NCBI GenBank assembly: GCA_023475105.1 | Contig: JAMCWJ010000094.1 | Location: forward strand, 50,626-114,625 | Direction of reading: 5' to 3' | Origin: Nitrospirota bacterium | Lineage (GTDB): Bacteria > Nitrospirota > Thermodesulfovibrionia > Thermodesulfovibrionales > UBA9159 | Length of the DNA: 64,000 nucleotides | Part shown: piece by piece, positions 49,950 to 52,855 of the stretch | How positions within the stretch are numbered: position 1 is the first letter of the stretch | Layout: each line of letters starts with the position of its first letter | Notes under the pieces: generated by a model | Told to the model about the DNA's origin: nothing | What the model saw: only the letters and a program-made list of their open reading frames with translations | The model's database searches: none | Made by a program: the position numbers and the translations under genes

Positions 49950-49973
49950 ATTCACTTTGCAGGAGACTGTCAC

Positions 49974-50792
49974 ATGCGTTCCTTCAGAATCATTTTTGCG
50001 TTACTGTCTTTCGCCTCGTCGACTGCCTTTGCAACTTCGATCGTCGCTGTAATGAATAATGACGAAATCGTGATAGGCGCCGACAGCAAAACCACACTGA
50101 TCCAGGCAGGCCGGGGGAAGGGCGATCCGGAAAACATCACTAAATGCAAAATTGTGCAGGCGGGAAATCTTTTCTTTGCGTCTGCCGGGTCTGCCGGTAT
50201 CGGTCCGGCCGGCGCGGTCGATCCGGAGTTTGACATCAGGGAGACTATTGCCAGGGGGCTCCTCACCGGCGGGGGGATCGACGAGAAGGTCGGGAACCTG
50301 GAAAAGGCCCTTGTCGCAGGCCTTACCAGAATCGCGGAAGAGGCGAGACAGGACAATGCCGCTTTCTTTTTGAAAAGTTTCGTCGGACAACCGGTACACA
50401 CGGTTATCATCGGCGGACTCGACAACGGTGAACTCGTGCTGAGGGTAAGAACATTCAGCTTGATCATCTCGCCCTCGGGTTCGCTTTCGTTCGAGATCGG
50501 ACGCTTTGCCTGTCCGGGAGATTGCGGGACATCCTTCCTAACGGTATTCGAGGGGCAGACCGAGGCGATCAGGAACTACCTTCAGGACCACTACTTTGCC
50601 GATCCCGTTACCGCGGTTCGCGATCTCGTGGAACTGGAGATCTCGAAAGACCCTTCTTCCGTAGGCCCTCCCGTCGATATTCTGCGTCTGACGAGAAAAG
50701 GCGTCAAGTGGGTCCAGAGAAAACCTTTGTGCCCTGATATTCAAACAATTCCCATCCTTCTTGAAGGAGAAGCAGGGGCGAATAATCCATAG
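49974..50792 (+). CDS. Secreted proteasome-like N-terminal nucleophile (Ntn) hydrolase candidate
   Basis: Signal peptide MRSFRIIFALLSFASSTAFA followed directly by TSIVAVMNNDEIVIGADSKTT...KCKIVQAGNLFFASAGSAG; predicted mature protein has T1 and D17-S18, with K39 near proteasomal K33. Confidence 0.7.
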   Translation: MRSFRIIFALLSFASSTAFATSIVAVMNNDEIVIGADSKTTLIQAGRGKGDPENITKCKIVQAGNLFFASAGSAGIGPAGAVDPEFDIRETIARGLLTGGGIDEKVGNLEKALVAGLTRIAEEARQDNAAFFLKSFVGQPVHTVIIGGLDNGELVLRVRTFSLIISPSGSLSFEIGRFACPGDCGTSFLTVFEGQTEAIRNYLQDHYFADPVTAVRDLVELEISKDPSSVGPPVDILRLTRKGVKWVQRKPLCPDIQTIPILLEGEAGANNP

Positions 50793-50830: not shown

Positions 50831-52627
50831 TCATCTGATCTTCCCTAACCTCCGGGCCAATGTCTCGGTCTCCTGCAGGAGGTTCTCCACTTCGTCCAGC
50901 CCTCTGTCCCAGAAAGAAGTTTCGGCGATGTCGATCCCGAGGCCCTCGAAAATGTTTCGAGGGGACTCCGATGAGCCTGCGGACAGAAAATCCTTTACTT
51001 TTTCGATAAAACGCGGATTCTCCTTGACCGAGTTCTGCAGGGACTTCGAGATCAGCAGGCCGCTGGCATAGGAATAAACGTAGAAGAAATGCCGGATATG
51101 TCCCCAGTACACCCACCAGTTTTCTGAGCCCGGCGATTGTTCGACAAAGTCGCCCATGTACGCAGCCATGTGTTTTCGGAAGATCGCCCCGATCTCCTCC
51201 TTTGCGAGATACCCCTTCTGCCTGAAGGCCTGATGCAATTCCTGTTCGAACCGGTAGCACGCCGCCTGCCTGAATATGGTCGAGACATCATCGTTCAGTT
51301 TGTTCATCAACACCGCCAGCCTTAGCTCGTCGTCCGCCTCTCTGAGAAGTTCCTGGAGCACGAAATCTTCCATGAAGGTGCTTGCGACCTCCGCCGTCGA
51401 AAGGGGCGACCCGAAGTTGAGCGCGTTCTGTTTCTCCTTCATCAGCTCGTTGTTGATCCCGTGGCCGACTTCGTGGGCGAGGGTGAGGACGTCATTAAAC
51501 TTGCCGGTATGATTGAGAAGGATGTAGGTAGGCTGTGAGATAAGGTGATGGGCGCAGAAGGCGCCGCTCGCCTTTCCCTGCCTGGGAAGGGCGTCGATGA
51601 AGCCGTTGTCGAGAAAGGCGGCGAATATGTCCGCGAATTTCGCGTCGAGCCTGCGAAGCACCTTTCTGATGATCCCGGCGGATTTCGCGAAAGAGTATTG
51701 TCCGGTGATCCGGCCGTATTCGACGTTCCTCTCGTGGTACTTCAGGAGCTTCACTCCGAGCAAACCGGCCTTTAGTTCGTAATACCTTGCAGCGATCGGA
51801 AACCTTTCGAGGACCGTCCCGATGAGCGCATCGACGATCCCGCTTTCGATGTCGTCGCTGACATGCCGTCCGAGATCGGGGCGGTCCATCCTGCGAAGGG
51901 TGTCATCGGTCTTCTTGTTTGCGAGTATCGCATTAAGCTCGGCTTCGGCGACATCGGAGTGTTTTCTCATGATCTCGTTGAAGGCCTTTGCCCCGGAATC
52001 CCTCACTCGCCGGGACGGACTGTTCATGAGACTCAGGATCTCGGAAAAATTCCTAAGGCTTTTCCCGCCGTCCTCCGACAGTATTTCCCTCTCTTCTTTC
52101 GCGAGGAAGCCCGACGTCATACGCACCCAGTTCGAATAGGAGGTGGGCGCTTTGAGGGTGAGTATCTTCTCTTCTGCCTCGCTCAGGAGAAACCTCGATT
52201 CCGCGAAGAGCCTTTCGAGGTAGTGCCGGTAAGGCTTCAGACCTTTTTGCCGAAGGAACATCTTCTGTCTTGTCCGCGGGATTTTGCTTATCCGTATGTG
52301 GAAGAACTGGATGTCGTTTTGGATCCTGTGGCTGAACTCCTCTATCCTGTTGTAGTTGGCTTTCAGTTTCGGATCGTTCTGGTCCTGCTGTGTCCTGAGC
52401 ATGAAATAGTAGCCCTCGTCCCCGTCGGCGCCGTAATACCTGTTCCACTCTTCGTATTCGTCAAGGGCTTTTCTGAGCACCGCAGGGTCGACGAGATAAT
52501 CCCGGCGGTCCTTCCACTTCCGGATGAATTCATAGCTCTTCTTTTCGACGATCTTCCGCCTCTCCTCCATGCGCGGGTCGCTGTCGTCCTCAAACAGAGG
52601 TCTGAGATTCCATACGCTGCGTTTCAT
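50831..52627 (-). CDS. M3-family oligoendopeptidase F-like metallopeptidase
   Basis: DVLTLAHEVGHGINNELM (HExxH), STAEVASTFMEDFVLQELL, VEQSPGSENWWVYWGHIRHFFYVYSYASGLLIS. Confidence 0.9.
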   Translation of the reverse strand: MKRSVWNLRPLFEDDSDPRMEERRKIVEKKSYEFIRKWKDRRDYLVDPAVLRKALDEYEEWNRYYGADGDEGYYFMLRTQQDQNDPKLKANYNRIEEFSHRIQNDIQFFHIRISKIPRTRQKMFLRQKGLKPYRHYLERLFAESRFLLSEAEEKILTLKAPTSYSNWVRMTSGFLAKEEREILSEDGGKSLRNFSEILSLMNSPSRRVRDSGAKAFNEIMRKHSDVAEAELNAILANKKTDDTLRRMDRPDLGRHVSDDIESGIVDALIGTVLERFPIAARYYELKAGLLGVKLLKYHERNVEYGRITGQYSFAKSAGIIRKVLRRLDAKFADIFAAFLDNGFIDALPRQGKASGAFCAHHLISQPTYILLNHTGKFNDVLTLAHEVGHGINNELMKEKQNALNFGSPLSTAEVASTFMEDFVLQELLREADDELRLAVLMNKLNDDVSTIFRQAACYRFEQELHQAFRQKGYLAKEEIGAIFRKHMAAYMGDFVEQSPGSENWWVYWGHIRHFFYVYSYASGLLISKSLQNSVKENPRFIEKVKDFLSAGSSESPRNIFEGLGIDIAETSFWDRGLDEVENLLQETETLARRLGKIR

Positions 52628-52743
52628 CGAGTGTCCTTTCCGGCGAAAGACAGTGTCCGCAACAGTTCCGCCTGCCGTCATTGTAGCATAAAGGCGCGAC
52701 CTGTAAAGGACGCGACCCCAAATCCACCATCGAGAAAATGATG

Positions 52744-52855
52744 CCTGCGTGAGGACGGCATTCGCTCTCATTCTCGCTTCGCTCCGAGGCGCCGGGCCGC
52801 TTCACCCGAAAGGTGAGCCGGCCCGCTGAAGCCGTTCGAATGCATCCTCACGCAG
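52744..52855. repeat. MITE-like nested inverted repeat (~112 bp)
   Basis: Outer arms CTGCGTGAGGACGGCATTCG / CGAATGCATCCTCACGCAG; inner arms CGGGCCGCTTCACC / GGTGAGCCGGCCCG; folds into one long hairpin. Confidence 0.65.

Follow-up and report, generated by a model that had tools for sequence, protein, structure and literature searches.

The locus examined here raises the question of how an N-terminal threonine nucleophile of the proteasome type could become exposed in a protein that carries what looks like a signal peptide. The window, by which we mean the whole 64,000-nucleotide stretch of a Nitrospirota contig that was analysed, contains an open reading frame whose precursor starts with MRSFRIIFALLSFASSTAFA and continues, after the junction AFA/T (a slash marks a junction throughout), as TSIVAVMNNDEIVIGADSKTT. 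To our knowledge, proteasome-like enzymes have so far been treated as cytosolic, with a nucleophile that is freed either by self-cleavage or by methionine aminopeptidase. A first-pass annotation of the DNA had proposed that in this protein Sec export and signal-peptidase cleavage take the place of autocatalytic propeptide removal. We consider it probable that the protein is indeed a threonine Ntn-hydrolase of the proteasome type, that Sec exports it, that signal peptidase I would cut it after AFA to free Thr1, and that it would work outside the cytoplasm independently of an ATPase.

The gene starts 24 bp after the stop codon of rarA, and no strong promoter or terminator stood out at it. Its features are collected in Table 1, where mature residues are counted from the threonine after AFA. 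On this count Ile40 follows Cys38-Lys39, and Gly52 lies within the stretch FFASAGSAG.

Table 1. Features of the proteasome-like gene, in window coordinates.
Feature	Position	Strand	Basis
RBS-like AGGAG, 8 nt 5' of the ATG	49961..49965	+	direct reading
ORF for the proteasome-like protein, 272 aa, ATG start	49974..50792	+	ORF call, homologues, purifying selection
Predicted signal peptide MRSFRIIFALLSFASSTAFA, 20 residues, A-x-A c-region, ends AFA	49974..50033	+	sequence; hydrophobic core and Ala(-1) in predicted exported homologues
Thr1 codon (precursor T21), putative catalytic nucleophile	50034..50036	+	invariant in 18 homologues; aligned with mature Thr1 of BPH/HslV
Asp17-Ser18 (precursor D37 S38)	50082..50087	+	invariant in 18 homologues
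Cys38-Lys39 (precursor C58 K59), Lys equivalent to Lys33	50145..50150	+	both invariant in 18 homologues; BPH Lys alignment
Gly52 (precursor G72), equivalent to oxyanion Gly47	50187..50189	+	invariant in 18 homologues
CPGDC, conserved Cys pair (mature C160, C164), possible disulfide	50511..50525	+	cysteine table
VGPPVDIL motif, common to cytosolic Met-Ser relatives	50661..50684	+	sequence/profile comparison
WVQRKPLC: invariant Trp (precursor W246), conserved C-terminal Cys (mature C233)	50709..50732	+	homologue alignment, cysteine table

The gene is genuine, and its conservation is beyond chance, since eight genomes of the window's order (8/177, the window's own included) hold it with the same A/T junction. 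The distribution is patchy; the other seven copies are 53-73% identical to that of the window. The gene is under purifying selection, with dN values of 0.16-0.35 against dS values of 0.73-1.95, and the presequence evolves faster than the first 60 residues of the mature part. A ninth match within the order (L019) was rejected as an unrelated CBS-domain protein. In the acidobacterial sample, matches were found in 10 of 297 genomes (~3%), some of which hold only cytosolic cousins.

Searched alone, the window protein matched nothing in Pfam or NCBIfam, with no hit to PF00227 or to the HslV model, found no proteasome in the PDB, and gave nothing informative against viral and genome collections. A profile built from 18 homologues from Nitrospirota and Acidobacteriota (profile A6), when run against the PDB with hmmsearch, retrieved nearly exclusively proteasome-type chains, with BPH as the best match (E 1.8e-4), followed by 20S subunits and HslV; the family threonine aligns to residue 1 of mature BPH and HslV. 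Profile-profile comparison with hhalign gave E-values of 3.5e-6 for BPH and 1.8e-5 for HslV. AlphaFold2 models of the precursor (pLDDT 70, pTM 0.71) and of the mature form (pLDDT 75, pTM 0.76) were compared to the PDB using Foldseek, and in both cases the top 50 matches were all 20S subunits, with best E-values of 1.5e-7 and 9.6e-9, respectively. Model confidence is moderate and the Foldseek TM-scores are about 0.4-0.55 with a high rmsd, so that the models support a proteasome-type Ntn fold rather than its details. The fold proposed in the first-pass annotation is borne out. The listed PDB profile matches of the family included no Anbu chain.

The existing annotation models miss such proteins. 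The curated cut-off of the Pfam Proteasome model PF00227 is 22.4 bits, and members of the main family score at most 19.8 bits; a distant relative that is also predicted to be exported (L021/L035) lies above the cut-off with 27.0 bits. The NCBIfam HslV model gives weak matches for three of the 18 members (best E 0.0018). We file the window protein as a proteasome-like relative, apart from HslV, BPH and the members of PF00227. A further, cytosolic family with a Met-Ser start is related to it by profile comparison (E 3.7e-11), via the C-terminal half.

Only eight columns are invariant across the 18 homologues: Thr1, Asp17, Ser18, Cys38, Lys39, Gly52, a later Gly and a Trp. The four catalytic positions that have been named for proteasome-like proteins (PMC8665760) are all among them. 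The D17-S18 spacing noted in the first-pass annotation is present, and its reading of K39 and FFASAGSAG as the K33 and G47 region with a small insertion also holds: in the diverged members from Acidobacteriota, where the loop insertion of the Nitrospirota is mostly absent, the catalytic lysine is mostly found at positions 32-37, which makes Lys39 the equivalent of Lys33, displaced by a short insertion. The invariance of Thr1, Asp17 and the lysine, which that annotation had set as a check, is likewise what we observe.

Having established fold and catalytic positions, we turn to the leader. Homologues with a signal-like leader are called exported members here, export itself being a prediction. 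A signal peptide with Ala directly before the threonine is present in 14 of the 18 homologues, while three have Gly-Thr and no typical signal. The exported members comprise the eight Nitrospirota, six Acidobacteriota (L033, L034, L043, L044, L045 and L049) and the distant L035; a second exported-type paralogue in the genome of L033 (L041/L042, G439 contig C113; GRA/TTIVIRRT) is frameshifted. Their leaders differ in sequence, nearly all have a hydrophobic core and most have a basic n-region, and Ala(-1)-Thr1 is their invariant junction, the very diverged acidobacterial members included. In the window protein the leader, which ends in AFA directly before Thr1 as first described, has the basic n-region, the hydrophobic core and the small residues at -3 and -1 of a Sec/signal peptidase I substrate, and the genome that the window comes from has a gene for signal peptidase I.

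The exact cleavage site is a part of the earlier proposal that stands less firmly. A scan with a simple signal peptidase I rule accepts A/T1 for the window protein as well as for almost every exported member, but this alone does not settle the site, since neighbouring positions pass too, such as STA/FA two residues earlier in the window protein; cleavage there would leave a non-catalytic N-terminus. Together with one relative that has a signal-like leader but Gln before the threonine (L047:1477-2235, SSYGQ/TCIV), the one exception to Ala(-1), this leaves some room for a leader that stays on as a membrane anchor or is removed at a site some residues off Thr1; signal peptidase would then not activate the protein, which would be inactive or in need of trimming. 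We regard this as unlikely: the hydrophobic core is short and followed by A-x-A, Ala(-1) is kept in every other exported member, and the invariance of Thr1 would be unexpected if it were never freed.

In 20S beta subunits Thr1 is freed by propeptide removal, commonly at a Gly-Thr junction, and the same motif is found in some of the non-exported relatives here. The leaders of four acidobacterial proteins end in Gly-Thr, namely L046:1411-2187 (PLQLG/TAIV), L048:1471-2190 (LIKHG/TAIV), L052:1453-2259 (AYLSG/TTVV) and L061 on the minus strand (MTSLLSG/TCVV), and a broken Nitrospirota copy with a frameshift and stops (L025/L073, G331 contig C51) has the junction LLFG/TTVV. From their sequences, the acidobacterial leaders are likely short autolytic propeptides; these relatives would then differ from the families surveyed previously, where propeptides were described only for proteasome beta subunits and HslV (PMC8665760). 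One may ask if the leader of the window protein is such a propeptide too, removed autocatalytically in the cytoplasm and merely resembling a signal peptide, as the beta-type motif in these four might suggest. This seems to us less likely still, because exported members have Ala instead of Gly at -1 and leaders with a hydrophobic core, mostly preceded by a basic n-region, whereas the same signal peptidase I rule finds no signal-like site at the junction of the Gly-Thr members; the even cysteine numbers of the exported members described below also argue against it. The Gly(-1)-Thr1 relatives without a typical signal rather strengthen the suggestion that export stands in for autocatalytic propeptide removal. 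More distant cytosolic cousins start with Met-Thr (L059, L026) or Met-Ser (L020, L022, L036, L050, L051), and across Gly-Thr, Met-Thr, Met-Ser and Ala-Thr at the same junction the nucleophile is always located where processing would free it. If this holds, the activation switch of these relatives is open to study with simple mutants.

In one of these cousins (L059:688-2154), the Met-Thr proteasome-like gene lies directly 3' of a gene that ends in a partial kinase-like stretch (GRYKLLRELARGGFGEAWLGE) and that had no match in Pfam.

The mature part of the window protein has four cysteines (C38, C160, C164 and C233). Exported members have 4, 2 or 0 in their mature parts, and several of the non-exported ones have odd numbers. 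Even numbers would fit an oxidising compartment, a weak argument because Gly-Thr members, too, can have a cysteine of the C38 type and because the sequences are related; we would guess that C38 pairs with C233 and C160 with C164.

In the mechanism that we propose, Sec would export the precursor, signal peptidase I would cleave it at AFA/T to leave a free N-terminal Thr1, and the protein would fold outside the cytoplasm with this residue free. The secreted penicillin V acylases may be a precedent for exposure of an Ntn nucleophile by signal peptidase. Thr1 would then attack a peptide or other amide bond, assisted by Lys39 and Asp17, with Gly52 in the oxyanion hole. The site of action would be the periplasm or the extracellular space, where the enzyme, in whatever oligomeric state it adopts, would do without an ATPase. 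Its activity is most likely that of a peptidase or amidohydrolase, while a connectase-like transpeptidase activity is possible. Activation would in this way be tied to secretion, and the enzyme would be active only outside the cytoplasm.

An exported protein could of course have retained the fold in a purely structural or binding role. Because the sequence-profile alignments of the family span mainly the first half, the canonical auxiliary residues of the second half of 20S subunits could not be mapped. Since Thr1, Asp17, the lysine and the glycine have stayed invariant over deep divergence, we consider a non-enzyme very unlikely, and favour the exported hydrolase. That it is simply HslV or BPH with an added signal peptide, as the best PDB profile match to BPH and the alignment of HslV from residue 1 might suggest, deserves hardly any credence given the longer mature part (~225-270 residues vs about 175-190), the distinct second half with a C-terminal VGPPxDI..W motif common to the Met-Ser family, the coexistence of HslV-type PF00227 genes in at least five carrier genomes, and a tree that places the family apart from HslV.

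The family shares with 20S beta subunits the fold and the catalytic positions, but differs by a signal peptide with Ala(-1) in place of a propeptide with Gly(-1) and by having no ATPase partner, and the overall sequence similarity is marginal. With HslV it shares the signature T-T/S-I-V...D17...K...G; HslV, however, is cytosolic and works with HslU, no HslU-like gene neighbours the window gene, and most relatives have separate HslV-type genes. The beta-proteobacterial proteasome homologue BPH (PDB 5OVS, 5OVU; PMC5777263) gives the best sequence-profile match in the PDB, and its Thr1/Asp17/Lys/Gly region lines up with that of the family starting at the first mature residue, but its chains are ~200 residues long and lack a propeptide (PMC5777263), whereas the window family is longer, of the exported type, and has extra cysteines and another C-terminal half. 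Anbu is also a proteasome-like subunit with an N-terminal Thr nucleophile and no beta-type propeptide; its Thr1 is exposed by methionine aminopeptidase (PMC5666114). Fuchs, Alva and Lupas (2021; PMC8665760) have described 22 proteasome-like families (e.g. PHD, PMI, AAH), which belong to the same broad family and likewise have no AAA+ partners in their gene context. Their main text makes no mention of signal peptides, export or the periplasm and describes no exported family; the window family may nevertheless belong to one of the 22 without having been recognised there. Our literature search, with most subscription journals outside its reach, found no paper on periplasmic or exported proteasomes.

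The tree also has a bearing on how export arose. Placing all exported members, L035 included, in one clade was rejected by the AU test (p 4.9e-7), and L035 lies nearer to the Met-Ser group, so that the exported forms do not make up one clade. When L035 was left out, a single clade of exported members was not rejected (p 0.19), in a tree with many long branches where L035 is one sequence. This implies more than one gain of export, or a gain followed by loss. On the wider proposal we are evenly divided: that signal peptidase I acting during export is a third route to Thr1 exposure besides autolysis and methionine aminopeptidase, that Gly(-1) and Ala(-1) are interchangeable within one family through repeated gain, or gain and loss, of export, and that the products act beyond the cytoplasm as threonine proteases or ligases that need no ATP. 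What has been found so far suggests that a group of proteasome-like enzymes operates outside the cytoplasm; if so, this branch would put the proteasome fold into an ATP-free compartment, and raise the question of what is cut or joined there.

The gene context fits such a compartment. As the first-pass annotation had stated for this locus, no ATPase partner, HslU-like or other, adjoins the window gene, and none is conserved at the loci of homologues; the flanking genes vary, which leaves no conserved partner ATPase. For the same reason a conserved operon with rarA was rejected. Downstream and convergent with the window gene lies a gene for an M3-type oligopeptidase-like protein (50831-52771, minus strand), in a neighbourhood that varies among homologues. 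A search for PF00227 genes of the HslV type was positive for 97 of 101 related genomes, and such genes coexist with the proteasome-like gene in G002, G005, G059, G076 and G081, from which we conclude that the latter is no replacement for HslV; in the window's own genome (92% complete) no PF00227 gene was found.

PADLOC gave no match at all, and thus no link to defence. Searches with tblastn also returned no match, either in plasmids, queried with the window protein plus four family members from Acidobacteriota, or in phages, queried with L033. Against PHROGs, some members matched the phage 'peptidase HslV family', but weakly, and there were no other matches. One IMG/VR contig does carry a proteasome-like gene (L037:4449-5171) with a C-terminal GGPIDILLIT..W motif, and this gene adjoins phage-type repressor and ImmA-like genes.
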